A stretch of 46,387 nt of DNA from Sphingomonas segetis. GTDB lineage: Bacteria > Pseudomonadota > Alphaproteobacteria > Sphingomonadales > Sphingomonadaceae. Position 1 is the first letter of the stretch, and every line of letters starts with the position of its first letter. Below, piece by piece: positions 17,654 to 23,934 of the stretch. The DNA is taken from NCBI RefSeq assembly GCF_009720245.1, contig NZ_WJSQ01000004.1, forward strand, positions 1 through 46,387. Direction: 5' to 3'. The position numbers and the translations under genes were made by a program. The notes under the pieces are model-generated. The model was given only the letters and a program-made list of their open reading frames with translations, was not told where the DNA came from and made no database searches.

Positions 17654-17690
17654 CCTTGCTCTTGCTGTCTCCCGGCGAGTGGAGGAACTG

Positions 17691-18383
17691 ATGTCCGGGC
17701 AGGCAGGCATCCTCGACAGTCCCGAGCAGCGCGCGCGCTGGGAAGGCTTCCGGTGGACCGACGAGAACGCGAAGGCCGCGAAGGAGATCGTCGCGCGCTA
17801 TCCCGAGGGGCGGCAGATGTCGGCCTCGATCCCGCTGCTCGACCTGGCCCAGCGGCAGGTGGGTGCGGAAACGAATACGCAGGGGTGGCTGCCGATCCCG
17901 GTCCTGGAGTTCGTCGCGAAAGAGCTCGACATGCCCTACGTCAGGGTGCTCGAGGTCGCGACCTTCTACACCATGTTCAACCTCGAGCCGGTCGGCCGTT
18001 TCCACGTGCAGGTGTGCGGAACGACGCCGTGCATGCTGCGCGGCTCCGACGACGTGTTCGAGGCCTGCTACAAGCGCGGGCTGAGGAAGGGCCACACGAC
18101 CGAGGACGGGCTGTTCACGCTGAGCGAGGTCGAATGCCTCGGCGCCTGCGCCAACGCGCCGATGGTCCAGATCAACGACGACAATTACGAAGATTTGACC
18201 CAGGAGAGCATGACCGCGATCCTCGACGCGCTCGCGACCGGCAAGACGCCCAAGCCCGGTCCGCAGATCGATCGCCAGACCAGTTGCCCGGTTGGCGGGC
18301 CGACCACGCTCAAGAAAATGGCCGAGCGCAACTACGATTATCGCCCGCTGTGGACGCCGACAGCAGGGGAGGGCGCGCAGTGA
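17691..18383 (+). CDS. nuoE: NADH-quinone oxidoreductase subunit E
   Basis: 24-kDa subunit holding the [2Fe-2S] cluster N1a. Cluster ligands are Cys109 and Cys114 (VQVCGTTPCMLRG) and Cys149 and Cys153 (VECLGACANAPMVQ). ATG 17691 with GGAGG at 17681-17685 was chosen, giving 230 aa; the frame's upstream GTG lies within the ribosome site. The C-terminus has a Lys/Pro-rich extension as in mitochondrial and alphaproteobacterial forms. A 187-nt gap with repeats follows before the next ORF. Confidence 0.96.
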   Translation: MSGQAGILDSPEQRARWEGFRWTDENAKAAKEIVARYPEGRQMSASIPLLDLAQRQVGAETNTQGWLPIPVLEFVAKELDMPYVRVLEVATFYTMFNLEPVGRFHVQVCGTTPCMLRGSDDVFEACYKRGLRKGHTTEDGLFTLSEVECLGACANAPMVQINDDNYEDLTQESMTAILDALATGKTPKPGPQIDRQTSCPVGGPTTLKKMAERNYDYRPLWTPTAGEGAQ

Positions 18384-18399
18384 CGACCACTTCTTTCGC

Positions 18400-18420
18400 C
18401 ATTCCCGCGAAAGCGGGAAC
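18400..18420. repeat. Single hairpin of repeat type R2
   Basis: The 21 nt CATTCCCGCGAAAGCGGGAA plus C fold as CCCGC-GAAA-GCGGG. They are identical to the reverse complement of 23901-23921 in the full R2 element between nuoI and nuoJ. No partner arm is found nearby, so this is a half element. Confidence 0.85.
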
Positions 18421-18431
18421 TCAAGTCGTGT

Positions 18432-18534
18432 TTTTGCACACGAAGGCGCGAAGGGGAAAAGAGAAGGCACGAAGAGCTTGCCGCCAATCGCACCTTCGTG
18501 GCTTCCTTCCTTCTTCGTGCCTTCGTGTGGAAAA
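18432..18534. repeat. Inverted-repeat element type R3 (MITE-like)
   Basis: Left arm 18432-18453 (TTTTGCACACGAAGGC then GCGAAG) and right arm 18513-18534 are inverted copies with 2 mismatches in 22 nt, around a purine-rich/pyrimidine-rich core. With the R2 half element it fills the 187-nt nuoE-to-next-ORF spacer, where I see no gene. Confidence 0.85.
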
Positions 18535-18570
18535 TTTTGGTTGCCGCTTCGCGGCGGCGGGACTCGCGGC

Positions 18571-18717
18571 ATGATCGGCCTCGTCATCGCCGTGATCATC
18601 GCAATTCTCCTCGTGGGGCTGCTGCTGAAACTGCTCAAGATCGCGATCATCGTCGCGCTGGTGGTCGGCGGGCTGATGCTGGCGCAGAAACATTTCGGCC
18701 AGAAGCGGATCAAGTGA
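18571..18717 (+). CDS. Small single-helix membrane protein between nuoE and nuoF
   Basis: A 48-aa [23 protein letters not shown] followed by more hydrophobic residues to about 35 and a basic tail ([10 protein letters not shown]). It may span the membrane once or as a tight pair. No known family was recognised. Its stop overlaps the nuoF ATG (TGATG), so it is probably translated and coupled to nuoF. There is no strong ribosome site upstream. It could be an accessory complex I subunit or assembly factor, or a chance product; conservation would decide. Confidence 0.6.
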
Positions 18718-20042
18718 TGGGCTACACCGGACCGCTCGCGGACAAGGACCGCATCTTCACCAACGTCTACGGCTTCCAGTCGCCGTTCCTGAAGGCAGCG
18801 CAGCAGCGCGGCGATTGGGACGATACGGCGAAGCTGATGCAGGTCGGACAGGACCCGATCATCGACGCGATCAAGGCGTCGGGGCTTCGTGGGCGCGGCG
18901 GCGCCGGCTTCCCGACGGGGATGAAGTGGAGCTTCATGCCCAAGGAGCCCAAGCCGGGGAAGCCCAACTTCCTGGTGATCAACGCCGACGAATCCGAGCC
19001 CGGGTCGTGCAAGGACCGCGAGATCATCCGCCATGACCCGCACAAATTGCTCGAAGGCGCGCTGATCGCGAGCTTCGCGATGCGGGCGCGCGCGGCCTAC
19101 ATCTACATCCGCGGCGAATTCATCCGTGAAACCGAGGTGTTACGCAAAGCCGTTGCGGAATGCTATGAGGTGGGGCTGTTCGGCAAGAACGCGGCCGGAA
19201 GCGGTTACGACTTCGACTGCTTCGTCCACCGCGGCGCCGGAGCCTACATCTGCGGCGAAGAAACGGCGATGCTCGAGAGCCTCGAGGGCGGAAAAGGGTG
19301 GCCGCGGCTCAAGCCGCCGTTCCCGGCCGGTGCGGGCCTCTACGGTTGCCCGACCACCGTCAACAACGTCGAGAGCATCGCGGTCGTGCCGACCATCCTC
19401 CGCCGCGGCGCGAGCTGGTTTTCGAGCATCGGGCGCGAGAAGAACGAGGGCACCAAGCTGTTCCAGCTGTCGGGCCACATCAACACGCCCTGCGTCGTCG
19501 AGGAATCGATGGGGATCAGCTTCCGCGAGCTGATCAGCCGCCACGGGCACGGCGTGCGCGGCGGCAAGAATGCCGACGATTTCAGCAATTTGATGTGCGT
19601 CATTCCCGGCGGCTCTTCGGTACCTCTGGTGCCGGCCGAGCAGATCCTCGATGCGCCGATGGACTTCGACGGGCTGAAGGCGCTCGGCTCGGGCCTTGGC
19701 ACGGCGGCGGTGATCGTGATGGACAAGTCCACCGACGTGGTCCGCGCGATCAGCCGCATTTCCTATTTCTACAAGCACGAGAGCTGCGGCCAGTGTACTC
19801 CGTGCCGTGAAGGCACCGGCTGGATGTGGCGGGTGATGGAGAAGATGCGCACCGGCGATGCCGAGGTCGAGGACATCGACAAGCTGCTCGACGTCACCAA
19901 GCAGGTCGAGGGCCACACCATCTGCGCGCTCGGTGACGCCGCCGCCTGGCCGATCCAGGGCCTGATCCGCCACTACCGACCCGAGCTCGAGCGCCGCATC
20001 GCCGAGCGCAGGGGCCGGACAATGCTGGAGGCGGCGGAATGA
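18717..20042 (+). CDS. nuoF: NADH-quinone oxidoreductase subunit F
   Basis: 51-kDa subunit that binds NADH and FMN and carries the [4Fe-4S] cluster N3. In the 441-aa product the nucleotide motif [11 protein letters not shown] is at 58-68, the FMN motif [19 protein letters not shown] is central, and cluster ligands are Cys357, Cys360, Cys363 ([10 protein letters not shown]) and Cys403 (HTICALGD). The stop overlaps the following 50-aa ORF by ATGA. Confidence 0.97.
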
Positions 20043-20191
20043 GCACCCAGACCATCATCATCATTATCGCGATCGTGATGATCGTCGTGATCGCCTTCGG
20101 CGGGCTGCGCCGTGGCGGCCCGCGCGTCACGCAGATCGACCGCACCGTGAAGCGGAAGAAGGACGAACCGGAGGACCGCGGCGATGCCTAA
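20039..20191 (+). CDS. 50-aa membrane micro-protein between nuoF and nuoG
   Basis: One very hydrophobic N-terminal helix ([20 protein letters not shown], about 2-21), then a basic/charged tail with RRGGPR and [12 protein letters not shown]. It starts in an ATGA overlap with the nuoF stop and ends 8 nt inside nuoG, so it is locked between the two genes, which argues for real translation. I know no family for it. A role in complex I assembly or stability is inference from position only. Confidence 0.65.
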
Positions 20192-22193
20192 GGTCACCGT
20201 CGACGGCGTCGAGCTCGAGGTCCCGCAGGGCGCGACCGTGCTCCAGGCCTGCGAGCTCGCGGGCAAGGAAATCCCGCGCTTCTGCTACCACGAGCGCCTG
20301 TCCATCGCCGGCAATTGCCGAATGTGTCTGGTCGAGGTCGCTCCGGGGCCGCCCAAGCCGCAGGCGAGCTGTGCGCTTCCCGCCGCCGACGGCCAGGCGA
20401 TCCGCACCGACACGCCGATGGTCAAGAAGGCGCGCGAAGGGGTGATGGAGTTCCTGCTCATCAACCACCCGCTCGACTGCCCGATCTGCGACCAGGGAGG
20501 CGAGTGCGACCTGCAGGACCAGGCGATGGCCTACGGCCGCAGCTTCTCGCGCTTCGAGGAGAACAAGCGGGCGATCGACGACAAATATATGGGGCCGGTC
20601 ATCAAGACCTCGATGACGCGCTGCATCCAGTGCACGCGCTGCATTCGCCTCGCCGAGGAGGTCGCAGGGGTGCCGGAAATCGGCATGCTGTACCGCGGCG
20701 AGGATTCGCAGATCACGACCTATCTCGAGCGGACCGTGACCAGCGAGTTGGCCGGCAACCTCGCCGACGTGTGCCCGGTCGGAGCGCTCCTGCAGAAGCC
20801 GCACGCGTTCGAATTCCGCCCGTGGGAGCTGCGGCGGGTGCCCGGGATCGATGTCATGGACGCCGTCGGCTCCAACATCCGGCTCGACGTCCGTCAGCGC
20901 CAGGTGATGCGCATCCTGCCGCGCATCAACGAGGACGTGAACGAGGAGTGGATCCACGACAAGACGCGACATCATGTGGACGCCCTTGTCCGCAACCGGC
21001 TAGACCGGCCGTGGATGCGTGAAAAGGGCAGGCTTCGCGAGGCGAGCTGGACCGAAGCGCTGGAGATATTCGGAAAAAGGCTGAAGAAGGCGGGAAGCAA
21101 GGTCGCGGCGATTGCCGGCGACCTGCTCGATGCCGAGACGATGTATGCGGCGAGGAAGCTGCTCGAAGGGCAGGGGTCAACCCTAATCGAAGGGCGGCAG
21201 ACCGGGCTCACCTACGATTGCACGAGCCTGTCGGCGGTGGCGTTCAACTCGACCATCGCAGGGATCGAGACGGCCGATGTGGTACTGCTGGTCGGATCGA
21301 ACGTCCGCTGGGAAGCGCCGCTGGTTGCCACCCGCGTGCGCAAGGTGGCGCGCAAGGGCGGCAAGGTGTTCGCCGTGGGCCCACAGGTCGACCTGGGACT
21401 GAAGGTCGAATGGCTCGGCGATGATCTCAAGCTGCTCGGCAAGCTGCCCAAGCCGGTGACGGACGCGTTCGCCAAGGCGGAACGGCCGGCTGTGATCCTC
21501 GGGCCCGGTGCGCTTGCGGCGGGCGGGCTTGGCGCGGCGCTTGGGCTCGTTCAGCCGCTTGGGTTGATCAAGGGCGAGTGGAACGGCTTCAACGTCCTCC
21601 ACACGTCCGCTTCGCGCATGGCGTCTCTGGTGCTCGGTTTTGCGCAGCCGAACGGCCTTAACGATATCGAAGCGGCGAAGCCCGAGCTGGCGCTGCTGCT
21701 TGGCGCCGACGAAATGCCAGCCGATCGGCTGGAGGGCGCCTACAAGGTCTATATCGGCCACCACGGCGACAATGGCGCGCGGCAGGCGGACCTCGTGCTT
21801 CCGGGCGCAGCCTATGCCGAGAAGCATGGCACCTACGTCAACACCGAAGGGCGGGTGCAGCGCGGCGAGAAGGCGGCCTTCCCGCCGGGGCAGGCGCGCG
21901 AGGATTGGGCGATCCTTCGTGCGGTGTCCGAGCTTGCCGGAAAGACGCTGCCGTTCGACAGCTTCGGCCAGCTCCGCCAGCAGATGGTCGCGGAGTTCCC
22001 GCAGCTCGGCCGCGACGGGTTGATCGACCTCGCGTGGGCGCCGCCTAAGCTCGACTCCAAGGCCGAAGGCCCGATCAGCTACTCGATCGCCGATTTCTTC
22101 CTGACCAACGCGATCTGCCGCAACAGCCCGACCATGCGCCGCTGCTCCGAGGAGCTGGTGCAGGGCCTCCATTACGAGGAGGCGGCCGAGTGA
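20184..22193 (+). CDS. nuoG: NADH-quinone oxidoreductase subunit G
   Basis: 75-kDa subunit with clusters N1b, N4 and N5. The N-terminal ferredoxin domain has [20 protein letters not shown] and SCALP. The His/Cys cluster motif is [19 protein letters not shown], and the next is [14 protein letters not shown] with [10 protein letters not shown]. The rest (about 215-669) is the molybdopterin-oxidoreductase-like fold without cofactor. At 669 aa it is the short alphaproteobacterial/mitochondrial type and lacks the extra N7 cluster region of E. coli. It starts 8 nt inside the preceding micro-ORF. Confidence 0.97.
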
Positions 22194-22203
22194 AGCTGGA
22201 CTG

Positions 22204-22267
22204 TTCCCCGGCGAAGGCCGGGGCCCAGGATTTATTTGTTCGCTGGACCCCGGCCTTCGCCGGGGTA
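22204..22267. repeat. Palindromic element type R1 between nuoG and nuoH
   Basis: Same arms as the element in nuoC: left 22204-22228, right 22243-22267, separated by 14 nt. The core CCCCGGCGAAGGCCGGGG is identical in all four arms. The right arm ends directly before the nuoH ribosome site GGGAG (22269-22273), 11 nt before the ATG. Confidence 0.9.
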
Positions 22268-22278
22268 CGGGAGCGCGC

Positions 22279-23810: not shown

Positions 23811-23934
23811 GCGGCGGCATCCTCGTGAAACAGGGCTCCCGAGTGACCTCCTATTCGTCATCCCCGCGCAGGCGGGGTCCCAGTCTTCTGGTTCAACTAG
23901 GTTCCCGCTTTCGCGGGAATGACGAGGCACGGTT
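23811..23934 (+). other. nuoI-nuoJ spacer
   Basis: A 124-nt gap with no ORF of its own. It holds about 44 nt of unremarkable sequence and then the R2 palindromic element, which ends just before the nuoJ start. Confidence 0.6.
23855..23925. repeat. Palindromic element type R2 between nuoI and nuoJ
   Basis: Left arm begins TCGTCATCCCCGCG (23855) and the right arm ends CGCGGGAATGACGA (23925). The reverse complement of the right arm matches the left over about 30 nt with scattered mismatches. Each arm is a CCCGC/GCGGG-type hairpin. The last bases GACGA, followed by GG, form the ACGAGG ribosome site of nuoJ. Confidence 0.9.

Follow-up and report, generated by a model that had tools for sequence, protein, structure and literature searches.

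Two predicted membrane micro-protein genes at stop-start junctions of the nuo operon in Sphingomonas segetis, one with relatives in the ribonucleotide reductase operon

Gene layout at the nuo locus

The window analysed here, which is the whole stretch of 46,387 bp from contig NZ_WJSQ01000004.1 of Sphingomonas segetis, carries a nuo operon in which two micro-protein genes, ORF1 and ORF2, lie on either side of nuoF:

17679..18383, + strand: nuoE, the upstream neighbour (longest ORF; likely start 17691)
18384..18560, + strand: dispersed repeats, partly palindromic, that separate ORF1 from nuoE
18571..18717, + strand: ORF1, gene of a 48-aa hydrophobic micro-protein; subfamily a of the nuoE/nuoF junction family
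18717..20042, + strand: nuoF
20027..20031, + strand: GGAGG, likely Shine-Dalgarno sequence of ORF2, located within the nuoF 3' end
20039..20191, + strand: ORF2, gene of a 50-aa micro-protein with an N-terminal hydrophobic helix and a charged tail with a conserved R[VI]T motif
20184..22193, + strand: nuoG

The stop codon of ORF1 (TGA, 18715-18717) shares its A with the ATG of nuoF at 18717 (TGATG), while the start of ORF2 overlaps the stop codon of nuoF at 20040-20042 (ATGA) and its end lies 8 nt inside nuoG (ATG at 20184). An earlier note, made from the letters of this DNA, had given the lengths of both ORFs, the start at 18571, the end at 20191, and the TGATG and ATGA overlaps, all of which agree exactly with the sequence and the ORF list. 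The GGAGG of ORF2 is 7 nt 5' of its ATG, and the same motif is found 12 bases or less before the start in 13 of the 22 nuo-located rows of the ORF2 family; no clear Shine-Dalgarno sequence was seen for ORF1 in a by-eye reading of the window. Repeat DNA makes up most of the 187 nt that separate nuoE from ORF1. A search of the same genome with this repeat listed 50 matches, including the query and with many palindromic places counted on both strands, and a short piece of the repeat DNA at 18384-18560 also matches 23901-23925 of the window. As ORF1 in relatives such as L036 and L037 begins at the end of nuoE, behind GGGAGGG, the insertion of the repeat probably removed the coupling of ORF1 to nuoE here. 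By eye, the nuoG-nuoH interval (22194-22278) is another GC-rich, inverted-repeat-like stretch.

How much the stop-start overlaps are worth can be read from the nuoF/nuoG junction itself. In the eight genus loci that have no insert, nuoF and nuoG always share one base (TAATG), and the first gene inserted after nuoF often starts in ATGA with it, whether that gene is a micro-ORF or encodes about 200 aa (longer inserts of this kind in other species include those of L038, L039, and L045). Stop-start joining is therefore normal at this place, and overlaps alone prove little; it is conservation that carries the proof. The argument of the earlier note, that overlaps on both sides make a chance origin of ORF2 unlikely, thus arrives at a conclusion which conservation upholds by reasoning which does not suffice. 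Many species have, between nuoF and nuoG, an inserted gene for a protein of about 190-240 aa whose N-terminus resembles a signal peptide by eye; the four tested had no Pfam match. Examples are:

L031, 4442-5155
L038, 4308-4889
L039, 4308-5006 (reverse-complement orientation)
L045, 4308-5018
L051, 4415-5050

ORF1 relatives at the nuoE/nuoF junction

The search with ORF1 gave strong matches in four of 60 related genomes (62-71% identity, E 3e-10 or better), and none of these four closest matches contains an internal stop, which the earlier note had named, along with frameshifts, as a sign against the genes. The stretch from nuoE to nuoG was compared in 54 genomes, of which 32 belong to the window's genus and 22 to the order's other families. 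The nuoE-nuoF interval measures 133-488 nt in 30 of the 32 genus loci; of the 22 other-family loci, 18 have a gap of 2-11 nt and one (L076) has a gap of 192 nt, and three (L060, L077, L078) give negative values, probably through alignment overrun. Neither the nuoE-nuoF (E-F) profiles nor the ORF2 profile matched in L060-L081. Within the genus, profiles resolve three subfamilies, namely a (the window and four loci), b (23 genes at 22 loci), and c (8 loci), which together, sometimes in tandem, lie between nuoE and nuoF in 29 of the 32 loci. The remaining L038, L050, and L058 carry no E-F family, although L058 has another membrane ORF of 55 aa. Four loci (L048, L052, L053, L054) match the mixed E-F profile weakly, at E 0.01-0.6; they were counted via subfamily c. 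The members of the ORF1 family are 43-52 aa long and almost wholly hydrophobic, and the stop codon of most a, b, and c genes either overlaps the start of the following gene or lies at most a few bases away from it. Identity between subfamily a and the b members in set A1 is 14-27%, and the putative link between the two rests on position, length, pattern, and profile.

In the wider family of genomes, the a+b profile matches 45 of 249 genomes and 25 of 96 genera, leaving aside a second weak match in G225 (E 0.009). The place of NuoF is listed for 32 of these 45 (the window included), and all 32 matches lie 0-226 nt from nuoF; among the loci read directly, nine of nine have the order nuoE-ORF-nuoF, two of them (G114, G246) being outside the 32. 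The family is thus placed in 34 of the 45 genomes, adjoining nuoF in every one, with 11 lacking a placement, and a profile match coincides with a position immediately upstream of nuoF. No E-F family profile matched at E 1e-4 in 30 nrd loci, of which eight do not reach nrdA. By the 34 placed genomes and these nrd loci, the ORF1 family is restricted to nuo operons. The ORF1-family profile built without c members (A1) matches at least 39 of 71 genus genomes, which is an undercount, and at class level the only hits of the ORF1 profile in 289 genomes were the window and a short match within a frame of 702 residues.

The junction itself is more generally occupied than these subfamilies indicate. Both nuoE and nuoF were found in 79 of 80 named nuo loci, with an interval above 90 nt in 52 and of 60 nt or less in 27. 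A hydrophobic ORF of 30 aa or more is present on the coding strand in 49 of the 52 longer intervals, against two of the same 52 on the opposite strand and 5.8% of mononucleotide shuffles, and in 46 of them the ORF ends near the start of nuoF. Many of these ORFs belong, by profile, to other tiny membrane families: matches in nuo loci at E 1e-4 number 5 (a), 39 (b), 13 (c), 17 (EII), 8 (EIII), and 9 (EIV), which together cover 72 of 112 loci. EII partly overlaps a and c, with one frame each matched by both profiles, and the E-F families are to be taken as distinct profiles whose unrelatedness is unproven. In essence, the nuoE/nuoF site is used by several families, that of ORF1 among them. In some erythrobacter-like genomes (L142, L145, L165, L172, L179), this one site holds a tandem array of two to four different tiny membrane ORFs.

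The ORF2 family in nuo and nrd operons

At strong scores, the ORF2 family turned up only in the window's genus, where it is found in 28 of 71 genomes, and its flanks divide it between two operons: 21 genomes have it at nuoF/nuoG and seven between nrdA and nrdB, the genes of ribonucleotide reductase. The nuo placement includes G016 with only nuoG in view and G031 with a copy split over two contigs, whose two matches are contig pieces, one beside nuoF and the other beside nuoG. The weakest nrd copy (G036, E 7e-4) is a full ORF (L210). Weak matches of the ORF2 profile outside the genus (12 of 15 genomes, E 1.6e-4 to 0.009) were left uncounted, 11 of the 12 lying inside frames of at least 380 residues. 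The ORF ends in CCTAA inside the start of nuoG, as in the window, in 12 of the 21 nuo genomes, and the R[VI]T tail motif is kept in 27 of 29 rows of the family; the automatic choice of start was wrong in rows L093, L195, L198, L202, L204, and L205. No genome among the 71 holds both a nuo and an nrd copy at E 0.001, but about two would be expected by chance (from 21 and 7 of 71), and mutual exclusion of the two sites is therefore not established. The protein tree of the family (55 alignment columns, weak support) does not separate nuo from nrd copies or indicate a direction of relocation.

Of the 30 nrd loci of the genus (L207-L236; L234 is that of the window's genome), 22 have nrdA in view, and there the nrdA-nrdB interval measures 393-1,443 nt and holds several small membrane ORFs, many of them stop-start coupled. 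None of the four tested reached a Pfam cut-off. Three families of tiny membrane proteins, matched in 18, 8, and 16 of these 30 loci, gave no match in any of the 112 nuo loci at E 1e-4. With its family at nrdA/nrdB in seven genomes, ORF2 cannot be called a part of complex I, and we rejected the reading in which both ORFs are specific to that complex. Tiny membrane genes with stop-start coupling seem to be located preferentially at these nuo and nrd sites.

Selection on the encoded proteins

The test of synonymous against nonsynonymous rates that the earlier note proposed indicates purifying selection on the families of both ORFs. Codon models, applied to 5 (a), 23 (b), 8 (c), and 11 (ORF2 family) genes, gave omega values of 0.035, 0.081, 0.031, and 0.074, respectively, and omega = 1 was rejected in each case (2dlnL of 109, 342, 172, and 173). 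Pairwise counts are milder than the codon models, and synonymous sites are near saturation for many pairs. Pooled pN/pS is 0.42 (a), 0.72 (b), 0.66 (c), and 0.75 (ORF2 family) versus 0.22 for nuoF. Replacement changes are rarer than synonymous ones for the families, with exceptions among the pairs; pN is below pS in 10 of 10 (a), 227 of 253 (b), 26 of 28 (c), and 48 of 55 (ORF2 family) pairs, and is not in the other 26, 2, and 7 pairs of the last three. Between the window and its closest relative (L028), dN/dS is 0.277/0.73 = 0.38 for ORF1 and 0.235/0.90 = 0.26 for ORF2, as compared with 0.055/0.53 = 0.10 for nuoF. Fisher tests on rounded counts gave p 0.024 for ORF1 and 0.001 for ORF2, and the c pair L053/L054 differs by 12 synonymous and no replacement changes (Fisher p 3e-8). 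Judged by these substitution patterns, the ORF1 and ORF2 genes evolve fast, but as proteins; conservation across relatives and the codon models bear out the view that both are real genes.

Predicted structure and known families

The model of ORF1 (21 aligned sequences) is one helix of residues 2-42 with a mean pLDDT of 86.6. A predicted helix of 41 residues is long for one membrane crossing and may represent a long helix or a tight hairpin; lysines 20 and 23 are in its middle. The model of ORF2 (single sequence) has a helix at 3-21 followed by a low-confidence tail with a possible helix at 31-41. The hydrophobic helix plus basic tail ascribed to both ORFs in the earlier note fits ORF2 and ORF1's own subfamily a, but the commoner subfamily b has no basic tail. 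No curated cut-off of Pfam or NCBIfam was reached by these ORFs, the closest Pfam family for an E-F relative (the L145 ORF) being Ycf66_N at 18.0 of the 22.3 bits needed. Against PDB sequences, the ORF1 profile had nine matches up to E 1, all of them PsaM (best E 0.0066), and the ORF2 profile had nothing better than E 0.18. A search of the open-access literature found no title or abstract on these genes.

Possible functions and alternative explanations

Long frames abound in GC-rich DNA (144 ORFs of at least 40 aa overlap 13-32 kb of the window), and the lack of any such family in Pfam or NCBIfam would also suit open reading frames that arose by chance. Position, frame, and sequence are, however, conserved across genera, and we rejected this explanation, which we hold to be extremely improbable, on the codon models, the strand contrast of 49 against two intervals in 52, and the conservation next to nuoF. 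Conceivably, it is the act of translation that matters, in that a hydrophobic nascent peptide would bring the ribosome and mRNA to the membrane, or set the NuoF:NuoG dosage, the peptide itself being disposable. Such a cis-acting leader would account for the frequent stop-start coupling to nuoF and for a hydrophobic character that is kept while different families replace each other; yet selection acts on the amino-acid sequence, the ORF2 family conserves a tail motif and is used at nrdA/nrdB too, and many relatives have no micro-ORF, all of which render it quite unlikely.

A possible, if somewhat doubtful, alternative is that strongly expressed coupled junctions (nuoE/F, nuoF/G, nrdA/B) are landing sites for small membrane proteins unrelated to the host enzyme, with the operon supplying nothing but expression. 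The presence of the ORF2 family in both operons agrees with this, as do the several distinct tiny-membrane profiles at 72 of 112 nuo loci and the three others at nrd loci, the proteins of about 190-240 aa that many species encode between nuoF and nuoG, and the frequently empty nuoE-nuoF junction. Free hitchhikers should mix more than was observed, though, as no tested profile other than that of the ORF2 family occurs at both operons (E 1e-4; nrdA is out of view in eight of the 30 nrd loci).

The best explanation as a whole, to which we give an even chance, is that these are selected micro-protein genes of the nuo operon, with ORF1 as an associate of complex I and ORF2 as an adaptor acting in trans. 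Conservation, position, coupling, and selection on the protein were observed for these genes; for the scheme that follows we infer expression, membrane insertion, topology, and contact with complex I. Ribosomes would pass from gene to gene through both ORFs by stop-start coupling. The ORF1 protein would be made just before NuoF as a small membrane helix and would most likely join complex I, either while the complex is being assembled or afterwards, as an assembly helper or a supernumerary subunit. The ORF2 protein would consist of a single membrane helix at the N-terminus and a short, charged, probably cytoplasmic tail; because its family sits at nuoF/nuoG or at nrdA/nrdB, it is more likely a membrane-anchored adaptor supplied in trans from strong core operons than a part of complex I. 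The suggestion of the earlier note that both are unrecognised accessory or assembly proteins of complex I is therefore retained for ORF1 alone, which by position is a plausible and fair candidate since every placed relative is next to nuoF, and given up for ORF2 with its 7 of 28 genomes at nrdA/nrdB. Against the preferred explanation, 27 of the 79 named loci have an empty nuoE-nuoF junction of 60 nt or less; together with the other tiny membrane families found there, this means that no one protein is required at the site.

If ORF1 does bind complex I, this bacterial family would have small membrane subunits of its own that annotation of core subunits has missed. The occurrence of one micro-protein family in nuo and nrd junctions offers a tractable case of how tiny genes enter and persist in essential operons. 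More speculatively, and in our view improbably, sphingomonads may have a lineage-specific layer of tiny stop-start-coupled membrane proteins in the junctions of core operons, in which the R[VI]T family moved between the nuo and nrd operons and may act on both enzymes as a tether or regulator, for instance by relating respiratory state to deoxynucleotide supply.

Comparison with known systems

The matches of the ORF1 profile to photosystem I subunit XII (PsaM) cover 17-21 residues of one hydrophobic helix, and we read the likeness as similar composition, not ancestry. Unidentified reading frames are present between genes of the nuo/nqo operons of Rhodobacter capsulatus and Paracoccus denitrificans, and the extra ORFs between nuo genes described here resemble them in this respect; in the order's other families, by contrast, 18 of 22 loci have 2-11 nt between nuoE and nuoF. 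Our literature search found no description of those reading frames. Tiny single-helix subunits of respiratory complexes include CydX. Another is SdhF, of 3 kDa (PMC7447783). Both are like ORF1 and ORF2 in size and hydrophobic helix, and in a link to a respiratory complex that is putative for the micro-proteins, with no sequence relation shown. The supernumerary subunits of complex I from Paracoccus denitrificans named in the consulted parts of two papers are NDUFS4, NDUFS6, NDUFA12, and a methyltransferase subunit, and, going by these partial descriptions, none is a counterpart of the ORF1 or ORF2 micro-proteins (PMC11522691, PMC8115037). Mass spectrometry in the Paracoccus study failed to detect two core subunits that are small and hydrophobic (PMC8115037). 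That complex offers a parallel for a candidate such as ORF1, with extra proteins added to the 14 core subunits in an alphaproteobacterium.
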